Assembly (NCBI GenBank): GCA_015664885.1
Contig: DQPL01000027.1
Coordinates: forward strand, 1 to 60,470
DNA length: 60,470 nucleotides
Reading direction: 5' to 3'
From: Gemmatimonadota bacterium
Lineage (GTDB): Bacteria > Gemmatimonadota > Gemmatimonadetes > Longimicrobiales > Gaopeijiaceae
The position numbers and the translations under genes are program-made. Below, one piece after another: positions 48,635 through 60,470 of this stretch (positions are counted from its first letter, which is position 1; every line of letters starts with the position of its first letter). The notes below the pieces were generated by a model. That model was not told the DNA's origin, did not search any database, and worked only from the letters and a program-made list of their open reading frames with translations.

Positions 48635-51205
48635 TCAGCGGTAGAAATCCAAAATGCCGACTCCCCAGGTGCACCACGGCTCCAGGCCGAGCCAGTCCTG
48701 CGCCGGCTGCCCCATCCACTGCAGCCCCGGGTCGCCGATCGGTGCGCCCGGAGGCGCGGATACCGGGTTGGGTGCGGTCACGGGCGTAGCCGGACGCTGT
48801 AAGAACCGCTGCACATCGAGCGCGAGTGTCGCGGCCTGGGGCGAGTCGTTCATCGCCATGAGATTCGTATGCATACGCTGCAGCACCGCGGTAGAAGCCG
48901 TGCGCACCTGCAGCATCGGCGCGTTCTCCGCGAGCCACTTGATGCGATCGATTACCAGGCCCTCGACCACGTGCTTGACCTCTGCCTCGTAGGCACCGTT
49001 CGCCGAAGCACCGAAGCTCGCGTCGATGAGGCGGCCCAGCACGTCTCGCAGGCTCGGCAAAGACGAATCGAGCATGTGCTGCTCGACCATTCTGGCCGCT
49101 CGGTCTGATGTGAGCAGCGAATTGACCGTGGTACTCGCAGCGACGACTGCGGGAGTGAGCGCGTCGAACGCGCCGCCGGTGTAACGAGGGAATGTCTCGC
49201 GGCTTCGGCCGAAACCCGGGGGACGCGGCGGGATGAGCGCCAGAATCGACTCGGGCAACGCCAGTTCCGACGGAGACAGTGTGCGCATGAGCGCATCCAG
49301 AGCGCGGTTCTGCGCGTCCGCCGGGATGCGCCAGTGCGGCGTGAGGCCGTCACCCCGGGTCGCGTAGACGTATCCGACGCCCCCCACGGCGGTGACCGTC
49401 GACTCGACTTGGTAGCGGTGGTACATGTAGAGCGGCACAAGCACCTCTTCGACTTTCGCCATGGGCGTGCCGTTCTTGATCGCGGTCTCACCGAAGCGCG
49501 ACAGCGCGGCGGCGCGCACGTCCATCATGCGATCCAGCTCGCTCCCCATGTCTGTTCCATTTGCCCATTGATCAGCCTGGGGCGTGGTCCCGACATCCTG
49601 ACCCGTCATGTAGCGGATGTCGTCGTCCCAGGCGTCCTGCAGGATGCGCTGGAGCTCGGCTTCCTCGTCGGTACCTGCGGGGAAATCCTGATAGCCGTAG
49701 GTGACCGCCACCTTGTCCCACTCGCCGATGCCGACGTCGTAGACCTGGGAGTGGTCGAGGGAACCATCGCGGTTCAACGTTACGAGGGGGTGCGGATAGT
49801 CGAGTACCGAGATTCGCCCCGCGCTGCTGTTGTAGTAGTTGTGGCCGAGACCGATGGTGTGGCCGACTTCATGTGCCGCGAGTTGACGAATGCGAGCGAG
49901 CGCCCACACCGCCAGCTCGGGAGGCGTCTCGTCGCCGGATGCATACGGCGAGAGCAGGCCCTCGGCCATCATGTAGTCCTGACGCACCCGCAGTGAGCCG
50001 AGCGTGACCACACCCTTGATGATCTCGCCCGTGCGCGGGTCGGTCACCGATCCACCGGTGCTCCAGCCGCGTGTCGAGCGGTGTACCCAGTTGATCACGT
50101 TGTAGCGTGCGTCGAGGGAGCTGATGCTGTCTGGGCGCATCACGACCTGGAACGCGTTGCGGTAGCCGGCGGCCTCGAAGGCCTGATTCCACCAGCGGGC
50201 GCCGTCGAGCAGAGCGGACCGCACAGGCTCCGGTGTGCCGGGATCGAGATAATAGATGATGGGCTCGACCGGATCGCTCATGGCGGCGTTGGGGTCGACC
50301 TTCTTCAGCCGATGCCGTCGAACGAAGCGCTGCGTCATGTCCTCGCCGAGCGCGACCGCATAGTCCTGATACGACGACGAACCGTAGCCGGAACGCGAAT
50401 CGAAGGCGCGCGTCTCGTAGTCGTCGTCCGGCAGCTCGAAGAAAGAGTGATGGATGCGGATCGTCGCAGCCTCACCTGTGGAGGCTACCGAGCCCACCCC
50501 CTCGAAGGCTCCACCGCCACGGCCTCCGCCACGACCGCCTCGACCACCACCGTCGCCCGAAACGAAGGTGAGTTCAACCTCCAATTCCGTATTGCTCGGG
50601 AAGACGTCTGTCATGTCCATGTAGACCGAGCTGCGGCTGTTGTCGAGCCGGTAGCCCCCCATTCGGTTCCCAGCGCCTACGGCATCCCGCATCAAGAAGC
50701 CCGTCATGTCCACGAGCACACGGCCGTCGGTCTCGGCGGCCGCGGTGAACCCCCAGAGCACCGATCGCGCGAAAGCGTCGCGCACCGCTTTTGCCTCGCT
50801 CGGGTTGTCGGTGATGGCGCGGAAGCGGTAGTTGGGCTGAACCATCATGATCTTCCGCCCCACGCGCTCGAATTCGACGATGCGGGAGCCACGCAGCGCG
50901 CCGCGGTCGAGACCGAGGTCGTTCGACCCCAAGCCAGCGCCGAACCCCATGAAGTGGATCATCTCCTGGTCGAGCTCTGGGATCTCCATCCAGAGCTGCC
51001 CGAGGTCCGAGTCCCAATAGAGCGGGAGGAAGCCGTCCAATTTCTCCATATCGGCCGTCTTCTCTTCGATAGACGGCAGGTCGCCGGAATTGCTGCCGCC
51101 TCCACCGTCGCCGTCGCGCTGCGCGGCAACAGGGAGGGCGGTCGCGATCAGCAAGAAAGCGGTGGCGGCTACTAGCTCGAACGTACGGCGTGCTGCACGG
51201 ATCAT
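48635..51205 (-). CDS. Large exported HExxH zinc metalloprotease (DUF5117/DUF5118 type)
   Basis: An 856-aa secreted metalloprotease. Signal peptide ends VAAQ, then a Gly/Ser linker. The catalytic motif is HEVGHTIGLGH, with zinc ligands His445, His449 and His455 and general base Glu446, the metzincin-like pattern of this family. Flanking domains fit DUF5118 (N-terminal, KTADMEKLDGFLPLYWDSDLGQLWMEI), DUF5117 and a C-terminal helical region. A Gly/Arg-rich stretch GGRGGRGGGRGGGAF (about 223-237) interrupts the N-terminal part. Length is normal. It lies upstream of the M19 peptidase gene on the same strand. Confidence 0.9.
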   Translation of the reverse strand: MIRAARRTFELVAATAFLLIATALPVAAQRDGDGGGGSNSGDLPSIEEKTADMEKLDGFLPLYWDSDLGQLWMEIPELDQEMIHFMGFGAGLGSNDLGLDRGALRGSRIVEFERVGRKIMMVQPNYRFRAITDNPSEAKAVRDAFARSVLWGFTAAAETDGRVLVDMTGFLMRDAVGAGNRMGGYRLDNSRSSVYMDMTDVFPSNTELEVELTFVSGDGGGRGGRGGGRGGGAFEGVGSVASTGEAATIRIHHSFFELPDDDYETRAFDSRSGYGSSSYQDYAVALGEDMTQRFVRRHRLKKVDPNAAMSDPVEPIIYYLDPGTPEPVRSALLDGARWWNQAFEAAGYRNAFQVVMRPDSISSLDARYNVINWVHRSTRGWSTGGSVTDPRTGEIIKGVVTLGSLRVRQDYMMAEGLLSPYASGDETPPELAVWALARIRQLAAHEVGHTIGLGHNYYNSSAGRISVLDYPHPLVTLNRDGSLDHSQVYDVGIGEWDKVAVTYGYQDFPAGTDEEAELQRILQDAWDDDIRYMTGQDVGTTPQADQWANGTDMGSELDRMMDVRAAALSRFGETAIKNGTPMAKVEEVLVPLYMYHRYQVESTVTAVGGVGYVYATRGDGLTPHWRIPADAQNRALDALMRTLSPSELALPESILALIPPRPPGFGRSRETFPRYTGGAFDALTPAVVAASTTVNSLLTSDRAARMVEQHMLDSSLPSLRDVLGRLIDASFGASANGAYEAEVKHVVEGLVIDRIKWLAENAPMLQVRTASTAVLQRMHTNLMAMNDSPQAATLALDVQRFLQRPATPVTAPNPVSAPPGAPIGDPGLQWMGQPAQDWLGLEPWCTWGVGILDFYR

Positions 51206-51328: not shown

Positions 51329-52369
51329 ATGAGCATACGACGACTATTTCGGACGCGGGCGCTGCTCTTGCTCGCCCTCGGGGCGGACCTGCTGATTTTT
51401 GCGGGTCCCCAAGATCCCTTTGCCTTCAGCGGAGCCTCTTTCGAGGCAGCGTTGGCGCTCCAGGAACAGGTCACCGATGACTGGCTTGCACGCGAGGGCG
51501 TGGTGGGCACCGCCATTGGCGTGGACGGACGAGGGCATGCCGTTCTCAAAGTCTATGTAACCTCGATCGCTGCGGTCGCCGGCTTCCCCCAGTACATGGT
51601 GGGCGTGGAAGTCGAAACGGAAGTCACCGGACCCTTCCTGGCCCTAGGGGACATGCCGACTCCGGCAGATGCCGAGGCGGTCGATCCCAAGAAGAACTTC
51701 CCACGGCCTGTACCCATCGGGGTCAGCACAGGGCATCCGAGCGTGACCGCCGGCACCATCGGTGCCCGCGTGACGGACGGCTCGCGCATTTTTGCGCTCA
51801 GCAACAATCACATCTTTGCGGCGAACAATGGCGGGAAGATGGGCGACAATCTGCTGCAGCCCGGTAGGGTCGATGGCGGGCGTGACCCCGATGACGTGCT
51901 CGGCACGCTACACGACTACGAGGCGATCGACTTCTGCAGTGGCCGCCTCTGCGGCATGAACAAGATCGACGCGGCTGTGGCGCTCACGACCGCGGACGAT
52001 CTGCACAACGAGACGCCCGAGGGTGGCTACGGCGCGCCCCGAAGCTGGACCATCGAAGCCAAGATCGGCATGGAGGTGCAGAAGTACGGCCGCACCACCG
52101 GTTATACCAAGGGTCGAATCACCGGTCTCAACGCGACCATCGATGTCGGTTACGCGGCGGGAACCGCGCGCTTCGAGGATCAGATCGTGATCTCGGGCAA
52201 CGGCTTCAGTGCGGGCGGAGACTCGGGGTCGCTCATCGTGAGCGACGGCTTCCTGCTCGCAGACCGGCGGCCGGTTGGGCTGCTCTTTGCGGGCACGGCC
52301 GTCTCCACGCTAGCCAACCCCATCGATGTGGTGCTGGATCGCTTCGGCGTCACGATCGACGGCAATTGA
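51329..52369 (+). CDS. Exported trypsin-like serine protease with N-terminal prodomain-like module
   Basis: A 346-aa protein from the ATG at 51329, which begins a signal sequence (SIRRLFRTRALLLLALGADLL); an ATG at 51269 is possible. Residues 55-104 form a small module (EGVVGTAIGV .. LKVYVTSI .. GVEVETEVTGPF). The rest is a chymotrypsin-fold domain with triad His161 (LSNNHIF), Asp214 (NKIDAAVAL) and Ser299 (GGDSGS). This is the Nal1-like/S1-related group of bacterial proteases. A separate gene directly downstream encodes a copy of the N-terminal module only. The triad is strong, the family name inferred. Confidence 0.85.
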   Translation: MSIRRLFRTRALLLLALGADLLIFAGPQDPFAFSGASFEAALALQEQVTDDWLAREGVVGTAIGVDGRGHAVLKVYVTSIAAVAGFPQYMVGVEVETEVTGPFLALGDMPTPADAEAVDPKKNFPRPVPIGVSTGHPSVTAGTIGARVTDGSRIFALSNNHIFAANNGGKMGDNLLQPGRVDGGRDPDDVLGTLHDYEAIDFCSGRLCGMNKIDAAVALTTADDLHNETPEGGYGAPRSWTIEAKIGMEVQKYGRTTGYTKGRITGLNATIDVGYAAGTARFEDQIVISGNGFSAGGDSGSLIVSDGFLLADRRPVGLLFAGTAVSTLANPIDVVLDRFGVTIDGN

Positions 52370-52391
52370 TCACGATTCGTCGTGGCATCTG

Positions 52392-52601
52392 ATGGCCGGC
52401 GACATCAAGACCGCCCAGCGCGAACTCAACGGCAAAGTCATGGGCCGCCCCGGCATCTCGGGGACTTCGATTGGCGAGCGCGGTGGCAAGCCGTGCCTCA
52501 CCGTATATGTCTCCGACTCCAAAGCCGGCGGTCGCGTCCCGAAGAGGATCGGTAGCTTTCCGGTTGTGGTGGAGAAGACCGGAGGGTTTCAGAGGCTCTG
52601 A
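52392..52601 (+). CDS. Small protein homologous to the N-terminal module of the adjacent protease
   Basis: A 69-aa protein starting at ATG 52392, 22 bases after the protease stop. It has GRPGISGTSIGERGGKPCLTVYVSDSKAGGRVPKRIGSFPVVVEKTGGF, which aligns over its length to residues 55-104 of the neighbouring protease (GVVGTAIG.., LKVYV.., GVEVETEVTGPF). No signal peptide is seen, so it would stay in the cytosol unless exported otherwise. It could inhibit or help fold the protease. The ribosome-binding site is weak, so translation may depend on the upstream gene. Confidence 0.72.
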   Translation: MAGDIKTAQRELNGKVMGRPGISGTSIGERGGKPCLTVYVSDSKAGGRVPKRIGSFPVVVEKTGGFQRL

Positions 52602-52626: not shown

Positions 52627-53604
52627 CTACTCCCCGGGGTCACTCAACTTGTCACGACCGCCGAGTTCGTCTCGCGTCCAGCCGCGTTGACCCGCATCGT
52701 CGCGAGAGGGGGACCCGGCCCCCCAGCCCGCGATTACCGCCACGTTGAGCGCGCCGAGCAGCCCCTCTAAACCCCGCAGGCCCCGGCCCAGTCCGTACCC
52801 ATAGAGCTTCCTGAACACCGGCCGTGTTGCGGTCCCGAGTGTCCCACCGGCCAGCAGAGCGAGCCCACCAACAAACGGCACGAGTCCCGCGGTCGCCAAA
52901 CCCAAACCTGTACCTACGGCCAATCCCAAGCTGACGCCAAAGACTCCGCCACCGAGCCCGGCCGCACTTGCAAGCGCGGTGCCAAGTCCTCCTATGACAC
53001 GGCGGTGGAAGCGAACGGATGACCGTACGACCACCTCACAAGACTCTTCACCCACCGGATGTATCGAGACCATGATCTGCTTGAGGGACGCCCAGGACAT
53101 CTCGTATTCAAAAGAGGTGTAGCTCAGGGCCGTGATGCTGGGTACGTCGAAGACCATGACACCTCCGCGCAGCACGTCGCCTTGGATGTCACGTAGGGAG
53201 AGATTGTAGGGGGGAGCCGGGAAGCTGCCTTGCATCGTTTTGTAGATGTCCTCGGCAGGAGCCGCCACTACGCGACGGACCTCGAGGAACTCCGGACCTG
53301 TACCCAGAATCCTCTGTGCGAGGCTGTCCATTACGGAGTTCTTGTGGTGCCCGGCGACGTCATGAGCCGTGACCTCTGCGAGTGCTGCGTCTACGAACTC
53401 CCCAGCGATGCCCGCTTCCTCGGCGGCTTGGCGCACGTGGCCCAGGGCGTAGCCCGATGTGTCCGGTTCCGAGATCTCTGCCTCGGCCGCAAGCCGAGAC
53501 GTGGCTTCGATACGCTTTGCGGCCTCGGACTGCAGCTCGGCAGCTCGCTGCCACAGATGAGCAGCCATCTCCTCGCTCAATCGCTGCTTGTCGTCGTTGC
53601 TCAT
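52627..53604 (-). CDS. Membrane-associated protein with N-terminal helical domain and glycine-rich helices
   Basis: A 325-aa protein from ATG 53604. The N-terminus is helical (RLSEEMAAHLWQRAAELQSEAAKRIEATSRLA, then YALGHVRQAAEEAGIAGEFVDAALAEV), like that of the frameshifted gene at 46765-47443. A central soluble part (ILGTGPEFLEVRRVVAAP .. CEVVVRSSVRFHR) follows, then a long glycine-rich hydrophobic region (GGLGTALASAAGLGGGVFGVSLGLAVGTGLGL) that could be two or three membrane helices. No known function. Transcribed away from the sirtuin gene and convergent with the small protein at 52392. Confidence 0.68.
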   Translation of the reverse strand: MSNDDKQRLSEEMAAHLWQRAAELQSEAAKRIEATSRLAAEAEISEPDTSGYALGHVRQAAEEAGIAGEFVDAALAEVTAHDVAGHHKNSVMDSLAQRILGTGPEFLEVRRVVAAPAEDIYKTMQGSFPAPPYNLSLRDIQGDVLRGGVMVFDVPSITALSYTSFEYEMSWASLKQIMVSIHPVGEESCEVVVRSSVRFHRRVIGGLGTALASAAGLGGGVFGVSLGLAVGTGLGLATAGLVPFVGGLALLAGGTLGTATRPVFRKLYGYGLGRGLRGLEGLLGALNVAVIAGWGAGSPSRDDAGQRGWTRDELGGRDKLSDPGE

Positions 53605-53698
53605 TCCGGGCGGCGCATGGTCGAGGGGACTCAGTCCCGTAGGTTCTCTCTGTGCAAGCAAGATACGAACAAGACCCTCCGCAGCATCAGGGCCGGCC

Positions 53699-54466
53699 AT
53701 GACCTACGACGCTTCAGGGCACGACTCAAGCCTCGAACGGGCGCGTGAGCTCATCGACGCTTCCAGTCGGATCGTTGTGCTGACCGGGGCAGGAATCTCC
53801 ACCGAATCCGGCATCCCGGACTTCCGCGGGCCCAAAGGAGTGTGGACCAAGAACCCGGAAGCCGAGAAGATGGCCACCATCCAGCACTACATGGCGGACG
53901 GGGAGCTGCGCGAGCGGTCCTGGAGGTCGAAGCTCGACTCAGCCGCACGCAGAGCGAAGCCGAATGCTGGTCACCGTGCGCTCGTCGCCCTGGAACGGCG
54001 GGGAAAGCTCCACACTCTCGTCACCCAGAACGTCGACGGCCTGCACCAGGACGCCGGCACGAATCCCGAAAAAGTCGTAGAGATCCACGGCACGATGCGC
54101 GAGGTGATGTGCATGTCGTGCGGCGACCGCGCTCCCATGGAGGTCGCATTCGAGCGAGTCCGTGCAGGTGAGGCGGACCCCGCGTGCCTGAGCTGCGGGG
54201 GCATCCTCAAGTCGGCGACCATTTCCTTCGGTCAGGGCCTGGTGGCGGAGGACCTGGCGCGGTCCCAGCAAGCCGCCCTAGAGTGCGACTTGATGTTCGC
54301 CATCGGAACCACACTAGCAGTGTTTCCCATCGCGGCCGTCGTGCCCGTTGCCCATCGAGCAGGAGCGAGCGTGGTGATCTTGAACGCAGAAGCCACTGAA
54401 ATGGACGACTTGGCGGACGTGGTGCTGCGGGGTCAGATCGGGGAGATCTTGCCTGCGTTGATTTGA
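53699..54466 (+). CDS. Sirtuin, NAD-dependent protein deacylase
   Basis: A 255-aa cytoplasmic class III deacetylase (CobB-like). NAD-binding motifs are GAGISTESGIPDFRG (30-44) and TQNVDGLH (109-116), with catalytic His130 in EIHGTM. The zinc ribbon has four cysteines: Cys138, Cys141, Cys163 and Cys166. Length and order are normal. It removes acyl groups from lysine, for example on acetyl-CoA synthetases; no partner is nearby, though an acyl-CoA synthetase gene lies elsewhere in the window. Start at 53699 gives MTYDASGHDS; the upstream frame is not sirtuin-like. Confidence 0.94.
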   Translation: MTYDASGHDSSLERARELIDASSRIVVLTGAGISTESGIPDFRGPKGVWTKNPEAEKMATIQHYMADGELRERSWRSKLDSAARRAKPNAGHRALVALERRGKLHTLVTQNVDGLHQDAGTNPEKVVEIHGTMREVMCMSCGDRAPMEVAFERVRAGEADPACLSCGGILKSATISFGQGLVAEDLARSQQAALECDLMFAIGTTLAVFPIAAVVPVAHRAGASVVILNAEATEMDDLADVVLRGQIGEILPALI

Positions 54467-56915: not shown

Positions 56916-59900
56916 TCAGGAGATGATCTCCTCCTCTTCGTCTTCTTCCTCCTCGGTCTCCGCGGGCCGAGGTCGATTCATCTTGATCGATACTCCGCCG
57001 AAGAATCGAGAGCCTGACCGCTTTACCTCATGCTCCGCCTCGTAGAGGTAGTCGAGGATCGCCTGATCCCACGATAGTCCCGCCTTGGCCACGAGTTCCA
57101 TATAGGGGCCATAGGCGGTCTCGTCGGGTGCCTCGGTCGTTCCGCTCCAGATCGTGATCCTGGGATTGTATCCACCCCCCCCGCCGCCTCCGCCACCAGT
57201 CGAGCCCTTCAGTGGCATCTGGATCATGACGCTGTCCGTCATCGGCAGTCGGAACACATCAGGGTCGAACTGGGCTCCGTAGCGCTCGTAGCGAGCGTAG
57301 CTGCGCTGGTTGAGGTCGAAGACGTCGCGGTTGGAGTTGATGCCGCGCGTGATGTAGTCGCGGATCTCGAATGCGGCGTCTTTGTGCCTGGGGTACTCGG
57401 GGCTGTCGACATAGCCGAATCCGGGCATGAACCAACCCTTGTTGAATCCCCAGTTCCGCTCGGTCACGCGGCCGCGGCGTACCAGACCCGTATATTCGCT
57501 GAAGAGCTGCACTACCTGATGCGACGGGTAGCCGTGCGGGTTCAAGAACACGTCGGGCAGCCATGTCGACCACAGTCGGCCGCGGACGGTGGACTCGGGG
57601 TAGATCGGATGATCACCGTTGCCGCCCGAGGTCGCGTCCTGGCCGAGGGAGCCCAAGTATCCGGCATGCAGGATGTAGTCGGGCGTGATGTTGTAGAGGT
57701 CGTATGCGAGCTGTGCGCCATCGGCGTTGGTGAACGGGTGGATGACCACGTTGACCTTGTCGAGTTTCTTGCGCTGCTCCGGGTCGGTGAGCAGTAGCTC
57801 CGCGTGCCGGAGCACGTGGCTGGTCGAGGAGACCTCGTTGGCGTGTTGTCGCGCCGAGTACACGACGGTGGGCTTGAACGTCGTGGCCTTCGCGTGCGAC
57901 CAGTGCGTCGCAGTGATCGCTGGCTGTAGATCCATCGCCCAGAGGTCCTTGCCAAGGTAGGACTCCCCGACCTTGTAGACCGACGCCTCGGAGAAGGCAT
58001 CGCCCAGCTTGGCGAGCATCTCATGCCCCTCGGGAGGCGGGATCGGCGTGTCCCACTGGACGACGCGGTCACCCGAGTAGCTCCAGTCATTGGGCAGAAG
58101 CGCTCGCCACTCGGGGAGCGGTGCTGGGGTCCCGTTTGCCGCCAGCGTGCCTGTTCTACGCGAATCTGCATCCTGCTCGTGCGTCCATTCGGCCCACACT
58201 TCGATCGAGCCCAGGCCGTCGAATGCCAGGGCGGACACGTATAGCCCCGCCGCGCGCAGACCCTCGACTTCATGCATGACCGCCACGATCTGTTCGGCAG
58301 ATACCATGCTGCGATCGACCTGCCGTGGCGTGCCGAAGGTCAACAGGCTGTCGCGCACGTCGGCGTCGGTATCGATACGCACACGCAGGCCCAGATGCGT
58401 GAGGCCTGCCACGCCAGCCTGCACCTTCGCCATCCTCGCCGAGGGTCGTTCCAGGGAGGTCTTGGGGATGTCGAGGCGGACCTGACCCGAGTCGCCTGCC
58501 GCGTCCTGGTACGTGACGACCACGGCAGGCCGCGACGTCGCAAAACCGGTGACGCTGATATCGACCGTGGCTGCCGAGCCGTCCTGCTTGGGCCGCATGA
58601 TGGGGATGATGCGACCGGGGAATGTCAGCCCCTGCCCGCGTGAGTTCCGGCCCAGCACGTCGAAAAATTCGACGGTACCGAAGAAGATCTCCTCGTGCAG
58701 CGCGTCCATCGGCGCGTGGATCTCGTTGTCGATTCCGAGCCGGTAATCGGGTTCGCTCATCGACATCTCGACCGTGAGCTCCCCGAAGAATGGTGCGTCG
58801 GTGCTGCCCCCCTGGGGCAGGCCGTCGTGCAGATCCATCACATGGTCGTAGACAGCCGGAAGCACCGTGCTCTGGTAGTGGTCCCAGAACGCCTCGGGGT
58901 CGGTGACGATACGCTCATCGACGATCGTCTCGCCGCCGGCTGTCGCGTTGAGCCATCCAGTCGTGACGCGGACGTGCTCGTAGTCCTGGAACCGGTCGAA
59001 ATAGGGCCGCAGGACCCACTTGGGTTCGAACGTGGAGGTCAGGAATGGGGCACCGCTAGCGTCGGTCACCTGGACCGTGTATGTCGGCCCTTCGCGTACC
59101 TGTTCAAAGCGGACCTGGTCCAGCTCGAGCCCGAGATCGCGCGCGAGCACCTCATCGATGGGGAAGATCTCGTGCAACCAGCGCAGAGGTGTATGAATCG
59201 CCTGTTGTGGCCAATCTTCCGGCGGGTCGTTGCGACGGAAACGGATCACGATTTCTCCGACTTCCAGCCCATCTAGTCGTGGAGCGACAACCTCCTCAAG
59301 CCACGAGAAGCCCTGCTTGAATGCCGACAGGATTCTGACTTCCGTGTCCGGGGAGGCTCCTGCATCGATCAGCATCCGCCCCGCCTCGTCTTCCATCGCG
59401 GTGCGCAGTGCTGGCGGCTCGCTGAGGCGGGCCTCGACGCGAATGGTTTGCCCGGGCGCTTCAGGTAAAACCTGTGAGCGGAACAGCTGCCAGAAGCTGT
59501 CGACCTCGGAGGGGAGCGTGATGTGTTCTTCGAAGATCACCTCAGCGCGCTGGACGTCCCGGTCGTCGATCGTGACCTCGATGTCCGATATGCCGAGCGC
59601 GATCACCGCGCGGTTGCGCACGAGCTGGGCGAGTCCCGGGTCAGCCTTCTCGACCGACATCAGTACGCGAGCGGCAGTCACGCTGCTGTCCGCGAGCACC
59701 TCCCCGATGCGGTCGAGCTTGTACAGACCGATCGCTGCCTGGCCAATGGGCGCGTAGCCCGCGAGCACATCCCAGAGTTCTTTCTCGACGTCGTCGACCG
59801 TAGGTCGGTCCTTTCCTCTCTCGGAGAGATTGGGGAAGGTGATGGCGACCTGTTCCAGCGCCCGCTCCGCCCCGATTTCGTCCGCGCCCGTGATCACGAA

Positions 59901-60470
59901 CGACGGCTTGGAGCCGAACGCTTCGGGCACGAACTGGATCAGCCCTTCTCCCGCGCCGAGTGCCTCGACGTCGATGAGGCCCGAGTCTGCGAGTTGGTCC
60001 GTGAGCTGGTTCTCGGTGCCGGCCAGCACCATTGTCGGTTGGCTACTCGCTCGCTCGACACTCGATGCAGGCTCGACGAGCGGGATGATCAAGCCCGTCG
60101 ATTCCAGGCCGAGTCGTCCGGCGAGTTCTGGCAAGCCGTCGACGCCTGCATTGCCGGGCACGAGCTTGATGTCGATCCGGTCGGGGATGGGGCCACCGCC
60201 CAGCAAGCCGTCGGTCGTGTATACACTCGACAGGTCGAGCTCGTCTTTGGCTCCGGACCCAGGTCGTCCGGAAATCGGACCTGGTCGGTCGGGCTCGGCG
60301 CGGCCTTCCAGGCGGATGGTCGGGCCTCCCGAGATTCGGACCTCCACGGAGCCGAGACCCGGGTAGGCGAGGGGGTCGCTGGAGGGCTCGTCGTCCTCTG
60401 CGGTGGCGTCGTCGTCCGGGTCCTCCGAGTCGGGATCAGCCGAGTCGGGATCAGCTGAGTCGGGATCAGC
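56916..60470 (-). CDS. Giant M14-family zinc carboxypeptidase, N-terminus beyond the window
   Basis: The frame runs off the right edge, so the gene is partial; 1184 residues lie in the window. The M14 domain has zinc ligands His876 and Glu879 in ARQHANEVSS and His979 in FLNPHGYPSHQ (numbered from the first codon here). A long N-terminal region without known domains precedes it (residues 40-800). Low-complexity features are the acidic ADPDS repeats at the very start, a GGGGGGGGGYNP loop after the peptidase core, and a Glu/Asp-rich tail (EEEEDEEEE) at the end. A GTG at 60347 is in frame but the frame continues upstream, so I do not take it as the start. Confidence 0.85.
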   Translation of the reverse strand, partial: ADPDSADPDSADPDSEDPDDDATAEDDEPSSDPLAYPGLGSVEVRISGGPTIRLEGRAEPDRPGPISGRPGSGAKDELDLSSVYTTDGLLGGGPIPDRIDIKLVPGNAGVDGLPELAGRLGLESTGLIIPLVEPASSVERASSQPTMVLAGTENQLTDQLADSGLIDVEALGAGEGLIQFVPEAFGSKPSFVITGADEIGAERALEQVAITFPNLSERGKDRPTVDDVEKELWDVLAGYAPIGQAAIGLYKLDRIGEVLADSSVTAARVLMSVEKADPGLAQLVRNRAVIALGISDIEVTIDDRDVQRAEVIFEEHITLPSEVDSFWQLFRSQVLPEAPGQTIRVEARLSEPPALRTAMEDEAGRMLIDAGASPDTEVRILSAFKQGFSWLEEVVAPRLDGLEVGEIVIRFRRNDPPEDWPQQAIHTPLRWLHEIFPIDEVLARDLGLELDQVRFEQVREGPTYTVQVTDASGAPFLTSTFEPKWVLRPYFDRFQDYEHVRVTTGWLNATAGGETIVDERIVTDPEAFWDHYQSTVLPAVYDHVMDLHDGLPQGGSTDAPFFGELTVEMSMSEPDYRLGIDNEIHAPMDALHEEIFFGTVEFFDVLGRNSRGQGLTFPGRIIPIMRPKQDGSAATVDISVTGFATSRPAVVVTYQDAAGDSGQVRLDIPKTSLERPSARMAKVQAGVAGLTHLGLRVRIDTDADVRDSLLTFGTPRQVDRSMVSAEQIVAVMHEVEGLRAAGLYVSALAFDGLGSIEVWAEWTHEQDADSRRTGTLAANGTPAPLPEWRALLPNDWSYSGDRVVQWDTPIPPPEGHEMLAKLGDAFSEASVYKVGESYLGKDLWAMDLQPAITATHWSHAKATTFKPTVVYSARQHANEVSSTSHVLRHAELLLTDPEQRKKLDKVNVVIHPFTNADGAQLAYDLYNITPDYILHAGYLGSLGQDATSGGNGDHPIYPESTVRGRLWSTWLPDVFLNPHGYPSHQVVQLFSEYTGLVRRGRVTERNWGFNKGWFMPGFGYVDSPEYPRHKDAAFEIRDYITRGINSNRDVFDLNQRSYARYERYGAQFDPDVFRLPMTDSVMIQMPLKGSTGGGGGGGGGYNPRITIWSGTTEAPDETAYGPYMELVAKAGLSWDQAILDYLYEAEHEVKRSGSRFFGGVSIKMNRPRPAETEEEEDEEEEIIS
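60426..60470. repeat. Three tandem 15-bp repeats encoding ADPDS
   Basis: Units (C/T)GAGTCGGGATCAGC at 60426, 60441 and 60456 differ at one position and encode Ala-Asp-Pro-Asp-Ser on the minus strand within the M14 carboxypeptidase gene. The series may continue beyond the window. In-frame repeat length means copy-number change would not break the gene. Confidence 0.85.

Follow-up and report, generated by a model that had tools for sequence, protein, structure and literature searches.

A NAL1-like serine protease of Gemmatimonadota is paired with a stand-alone copy of its N-terminal module, a candidate propeptide-like inhibitor acting in trans

We report a gene pair of the Gemmatimonadota in which a NAL1-like serine protease is accompanied by a small protein homologous to the protease's own N-terminal module. 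The pair was studied in a 60,470-nucleotide stretch of DNA from a Gemmatimonadota bacterium (GenBank assembly GCA_015664885.1, contig DQPL01000027.1), the whole of which is called the window below, and in loci read from other genomes. We consider it probable, with considerable room for doubt, that the small protein, P0002, is a propeptide-like inhibitor of the neighbouring protease, P0001, and acts upon it in trans; binding, the binding site, inhibition and purpose are alike things that we infer from the comparisons reported here.

The window belongs to a genome of 3.96 Mb in 136 contigs. The open reading frame at 51329-52369 of the forward strand encodes P0001, a protease of 346 amino acids with a GDSGS motif, which is assigned to the NAL1-like, trypsin-fold serine proteases from its translation, its match to the Pfam family Nal1_C and its predicted fold. 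The protease stop codon is followed by a gap of 22 bp (52370-52391) and then, at 52392-52601 on the same strand, by the gene for P0002, a stand-alone module of 69 amino acids without a signal peptide, which was recognised from its reading frame, its homologues and profile comparisons. An earlier reading of the letters alone (the sequence-only reading) had placed the two genes at these positions, on one strand and with this spacing, and our analysis reproduces its coordinates. Both flanking ORFs, a large one upstream at 48635-51205 and the next one downstream at 52627-53700, lie on the opposite strand, so that the protease and the small gene form an isolated pair. The large ORFs at 48635-51205 and 56916-60347 resemble secreted metallopeptidases by motif (HEVGHTIGLGHNY in 48635-51205), which makes the surroundings peptidase-rich. 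A promoter scan found none and was uninformative.

P0001 begins with a hydrophobic helix (residues 3-24; 51335-51400, forward strand), which is apparent in the sequence and helical in the structure model, is preceded by Arg residues and has no lipobox; the signal peptide that the sequence-only reading gave the protease is borne out insofar as this helix is predicted, and it may instead be a signal anchor. The N-module follows at residues 37-105 (51437-51643, forward strand), as delimited by its profile match to stand-alone copies and by hhalign, and its modelled elements are a helix (35-53) and strands at 58-65, 71-77 and 93-99. The linker between the N-module and the protease domain (residues 106-125; 51644-51703, forward strand) is modelled with low confidence (pLDDT about 60, and below 50 at residues 113-116) and is possibly a processing region. 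The protease domain, residues 126-346 (51704-52366, forward strand), has a streptogrisin/alpha-lytic-like core, as taken from fold alignments that run from model residues 126-128 to 344-346.

The membership of P0001 in the family is supported by its match to Nal1_C (PF25819; E 8.3e-9, 35.4 bits, curated cut-off 26.1) and by its structure model (pLDDT 91.7, pTM 0.87), which aligns over both domains with rice NAL1 (8pmi_A; Z 27.1, 291 residues, 3.4 Å, model residues 34-346). The catalytic domain of the model scores Z 21.2 with streptogrisin (2sfa) and about 20 with alpha-lytic protease, and the model contains a long hairpin of strands 258-275 and 278-289. His161, Asp214 and Ser299 are invariant across 73 related proteases and are predicted, by homology, to form the catalytic triad.

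The P0002 reading frame is a real gene under purifying selection, because its dN is far below its dS and homologues occur in dozens of genera. Compared with its nearest relative (locus L080) dN is 0.044 and dS 0.573, and compared with L079 the values are 0.016 and 0.623; the differences from the closest relatives are mostly at silent sites, and a copy that is 97% identical is present in a Gemmatimonadetes bacterium. Nine columns are invariant over 41 stand-alone copies (set A1), among them Cys35 of P0002 (52494-52496, forward strand), at the matching place of which the N-module in the window has Val. No match to P0002 was found in Pfam or NCBIfam, and the NAL1_N family of Pfam (PF25608) matched neither P0001 nor P0002 nor any member of sets A3 and A4; its cut-off was passed only by a distant relative at L195/L200 (28.7 against 27 bits). 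A sequence search of the PDB with single module proteins and with profiles gave chance-level matches only.

The match between P0002 and the N-terminal part of the protease that the sequence-only reading had quoted proves to be real. Direct BLASTP of P0002 against P0001 yielded no meaningful match (E 0.25, in the wrong register). We gathered stand-alone copies in 146 genomes belonging to the same order, fetched their surroundings and built a profile from the stand-alone copies only; this profile matches the N-module of P0001 at E 1.1e-12 among 8,943 ORFs. The sequence-only reading had staked its proposal on a significant profile match between the two modules, and one is found: hhalign matches the profile of 41 stand-alone copies to that of 67 protease N-modules at 99.4% probability and E 8e-22 over 63 columns. 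By these sequence comparisons P0002 and the N-module of P0001 are clearly homologous. Read-through of the protease stop codon into the small ORF was rejected as an account of the layout: a continuation in the same frame directly behind the protease stop is seen at some of the loci only, other frames being common, and it is simpler to suppose that the small gene is translated on its own.

The structure model of P0002 (pLDDT 80.8, pTM 0.63) has the order helix-strand-strand-helix-strand, which is also that predicted for the N-module of P0001. A Foldseek search with the model returned nothing significant (E above 0.04). Its best structural alignments are to the N-domain of NAL1 (8hau_A, Z 6.4; 8pmm_C, Z 6.1, 61 residues, 2.4 Å), all below a Z of 8, and to the C-lobe of the alpha-lytic pro region (4pro_C, Z 6.3, 67 residues, 3.1 Å, residues 1-69 on 87-166; 3pro_C, Z 6.2; 2pro_C, Z 5.8), and the unrelated C-terminal domain of MamB stands close behind at Z 6.0; values of about 6 are in the ambiguous range and can reflect a mere common arrangement. 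The modelled resemblance of P0002 to the NAL1 N-domain and the alpha-lytic pro region is therefore suggestive only. The hint of a pro-region fold gains interest because the catalytic domains are also related, and an N-domain fold for the module is supported by the alignment of the whole protease to NAL1.

The pairing of the two genes extends well beyond the window. Among the loci read from other Gemmatimonadota genomes, 106 of the 123 modules outside a protease have a GDSG protease gene as their same-strand neighbour, a figure that includes near relatives and so does not count independent events. All but six of these 106 (100) lie just downstream of the protease, with a median of 20 bp from the protease stop to the module start, and the six that lie just upstream all belong to one family. 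Stand-alone copies lying mostly far from such proteases, an outcome that the sequence-only reading had named as contrary to its proposal, are thus not what is seen; its view that a propeptide-like module is also supplied in trans beside the protease holds as regards homology (hhalign E 8e-22) and pairing (106/123). By genus, the module was found in 48 and the protease in 46 of the 138 genera of the phylum that were sampled. Of the 17 modules that are not adjacent, one belongs to a protease truncated where its contig stops (L074), three lie at the ends of contigs (L052, L115, L117), one is beside a protease just past the distance limit (L144), four are fused to beta-propellers (L061-L064) and one is a lipoprotein elsewhere in the window's genome (L108); the rest fall into none of these groups. 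No partner was seen in the stretch read for 13 or more proteases, and of these at least L189 and L187 lie close to the end of a contig. Each intact protease that we inspected has one cis module of its own, and two were never seen. No protease that lacked a module of its own and relied on its partner was seen; the one candidate, L191, has a divergent module by eye. A stand-alone module at L072 (4149-4385), altered in its first half and with no protease in the stretch read, is perhaps a partner decaying after the loss of its protease.

The signals of the two proteins vary together, as far as can be judged from a heuristic that combines an automatic lipobox count with several weak lipoboxes read by eye. 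Proteases in the family of the window start with a hydrophobic helix that lacks a lipobox, and their partners carry no signal; from these sequence features P0002 is predicted to stay in the cytosol and P0001 is probably exported. The partner is also without a signal in family f7, where its gene comes first and where lipobox matches whose Cys falls within the membrane helix are probably spurious. In several other families protease and partner are both lipoprotein-like, and such partners usually have two module cysteines (as in LCxGxxC) instead of one. L165 is a clear exception to the pattern and L150 an uncertain one. The absence of a signal from the small protein, which the sequence-only reading found puzzling, is confirmed, but it becomes less so, for it depends on the lineage and has precedents in Spi and the staphostatins.

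When 93 stand-alone modules and 89 from proteases are placed in one tree, 4 changes of label between the two classes are counted, compared with a mean of 61 for shuffled labels, so that the partner is an old companion and not a fresh copy made in each genome; at least two of the changes are forced by well-supported branches, in a tree that rests on only 77 columns and leaves many forks open. Judged from this tree, the stand-alone modules and those of the proteases belong to separate lineages of long standing, retained together as a pair, and recent duplication within a genome is ruled out. One genome (G262; L195/L200) has a pair with modules of the NAL1_N type, which is probably of independent origin.

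Outside the phylum, a plasmid of Rubrobacter radiotolerans (Actinomycetota) encodes a NAL1-like protease and then a 77-aa protein (the pair RRADSPS_RS15435/RS15440), which hhalign identifies as the same module (97.1%, E 7.6e-11); in a search of the whole record the 77-aa protein was found at E 1e-10, and the only other match was the protease's own module. Protease and partner both appear to be without a signal peptide in this organism. An 81-aa ORF begins 8 bp after a NAL1-like protease on plasmid pRlvC of Rhizobium leguminosarum (L206, 3376-3621). Its layout is similar by eye and its similarity is not significant (E 0.19), so we do not count it as a pair, and it is possibly a very divergent partner. 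The neighbour of a NAL1-like protease in Clostridiaceae is unrelated by eye, and searches of plasmids and phages with the stand-alone proteins gave no match. Among 14 control genomes, NAL1_N (PF25608) was over its cut-off in Methanosarcina acetivorans.

Some relatives of the module are joined to other domains. One (L115, 2-712) is fused to BsuPI, the Pfam family named 'Intracellular proteinase inhibitor' (E 1.8e-24), and two, L186 beside a protease and L198, are fused to PEBP/YbhB domains (E 5.5e-17 and 1.7e-17, respectively). Members of the PEBP family inhibit serine proteases, and the two kinds of fusion are a natural link of the module to inhibitor-type folds. The proteins at L061-L064 are six-bladed beta-propellers (DUF5128/NHL) that look like lipoproteins; the module is their C-terminal domain, and no protease lies nearby. 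The window's own genome has, on another contig (G000:C26; L108, 5154-5999), an orphan lipoprotein copy of the module, so that with P0002 it has one cytosolic and one exported module. The open frame at L108 also carries a cut-off protein kinase N-lobe upstream (Pkinase, E 1e-8) and is possibly a gene fusion or a chance open frame.

Of the three roles that the sequence-only reading had offered, inhibitor, chaperone or recognition domain, we favour the inhibitor, because of the BsuPI and PEBP fusions, the fold likeness to the alpha-lytic pro region and the cis module in every intact protease inspected; these make it the best supported of the three, with the function itself an interpretation. The partner would mimic the N-module and bind the mature protease where the N-module binds, and its short C-terminal tail, placed in or near the active-site cleft, would block the enzyme in trans, after the manner of Spi with SpeB or of SUB1-ProM. 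In the lineage of the window a cytosolic partner might silence protease that had folded before export, as proposed for Spi and the staphostatins, and in the lipoprotein pairs the partner might act outside the cytoplasm at the site of its protease, on the pattern proposed for Bacteroides. Several observations speak against an inhibitor. The solved protein of plant NAL1 constructs retains the N-domain, which therefore need not be a removable propeptide; the partner in the window has no signal peptide though its protease is probably exported; and there are the partnerless proteases (at least 13) and the copies far from any protease (the beta-propeller fusions and L108).

The stand-alone module might instead be a foldase: supplied in trans, it would help the protease to fold, which a pro region is able to do. 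Its fold likeness is to the alpha-lytic pro region, which speeds folding (PMC2829044), and co-encoding would yield both proteins together. We nevertheless think this unlikely: one cis module in each intact protease, and never two, agrees better with an extra layer of control than with a foldase that the enzyme needs; the partner in the window is predicted to be cytosolic, and the protease should fold after export; and the BsuPI and PEBP fusions point to inhibition. The same fusions fit inhibition better than they fit a regulatory subunit, an activator or adaptor that pairs with or replaces N-modules in a multimer. For such a subunit one may cite the several multi-chain entries of NAL1, the closest structural relative, which include open and closed forms, the possibility that free modules swap with cis modules, and the conservation of the pair in both gene orders; on balance we hold it quite improbable. 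That the module recognises a third partner, a substrate or a surface, and that its stand-alone copy serves as a decoy or sensor with a target other than the protease, is suggested by the protease-less copies (the propeller lipoproteins L061-L064 and the orphan lipoprotein L108), and is given only a very slim chance when 106 of 123 stand-alone copies are tied to a protease gene and conservation of the protease-linked forms extends over the phylum. That the two genes are neighbours by chance, or that the small one is a non-functional leftover of a module duplication, would agree with a pairwise similarity below BLAST significance, and can be set aside in view of a dN far below dS, the invariant residues and an adjacency kept across the phylum and in Rubrobacter.

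If P0002 is indeed an inhibitor, a wider history may be proposed, which we hold possible rather than likely: that the N-domain of NAL1 is an ancient pro-domain, inhibitory and of alpha-lytic type, which in at least two phyla was made into a free, co-encoded trans inhibitor, cytoplasmic or lipoprotein according to where the protease is. On that history plant NAL1 would gain a testable autoinhibitory domain. NAL1-like proteases range from bacteria and archaea to cereals, in which NAL1 shapes leaf form and yield. Their N-terminal domain probably controls the enzyme, because a free copy is kept beside the protease across a phylum and is in some places fused to inhibitor domains. The pair described here is small and easily expressed, and suits tests of what the N-domain does.

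Stand-alone propeptide-like inhibitors are already known as a kind, from SUB1-ProM and other examples of MEROPS family I9 and from Spi. We know of no earlier propeptide-mimic system for the NAL1 or chymotrypsin fold, and the literature searched, in which subscription journals are thinly covered, held no description of a stand-alone propeptide-like inhibitor of such a protease. Spi resembles the propeptide of SpeB. In Streptococcus pyogenes the two are encoded as a bicistronic pair of protease and small inhibitor, the latter thought to act inside the cell (PMC5613712). The likeness to our pair is that of a protease gene with a small partner gene; the differences are that SpeB is a papain-fold cysteine protease, whereas P0001 is a NAL1-like serine protease of the chymotrypsin fold, that the module has another fold, and that P0002 is a candidate inhibitor. 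SUB1-ProM is a stand-alone propeptide-like inhibitor encoded beside subtilase genes (PMC6993865), and with POIA1 and the yeast proteinase B inhibitor, also of family I9, it has in common with P0002 a small propeptide-fold product without an attached protease. Family I9, however, targets subtilases, whereas the module in the window appears related to NAL1_N, and no sequence link to I9 was found.

In Bacteroides, candidate inhibitor genes (Bfi, Bti) lie up- or downstream of C10 protease genes, with exported or lipoprotein inhibitors accompanying lipoprotein proteases, and in the staphopain-staphostatin systems of Staphylococcus the staphostatins are cytosolic (PMC3462683). As in our pair, the candidate inhibitor gene adjoins that of the protease, but these inhibitors are mainly beta-sheet, are unrelated to the protease's own propeptide and act on cysteine proteases; the P0002 model, with its two helices and three strands, does not have the beta-sheet fold of the staphostatins and Bti. 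In alpha-lytic protease the C-terminal junction of the pro region lies across the active site, and the pro region, which speeds folding, joins a protease hairpin to make a sheet (PMC2829044). The P0001 core resembles that enzyme at a Z of about 20, the P0001 model also has a long hairpin (258-289), and P0002 matches the C-lobe of the pro region at a Z of 5.8-6.3, in the ambiguous range; the alpha-lytic pro region differs in being encoded in cis and has no significant sequence match to P0002. No stand-alone partner of the N-domain of plant NAL1 appeared in the literature searched. Plant NARROW LEAF 1 itself, with its domains NAL1_N and Nal1_C, has the two-domain layout of P0001 (model residues 34-346, Z 27.1), at an identity of only about 20%. 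If our reading of P0002 is true, a chymotrypsin-fold family joins those with propeptide-mimic inhibitors, which are known mainly for subtilases and cysteine proteases.
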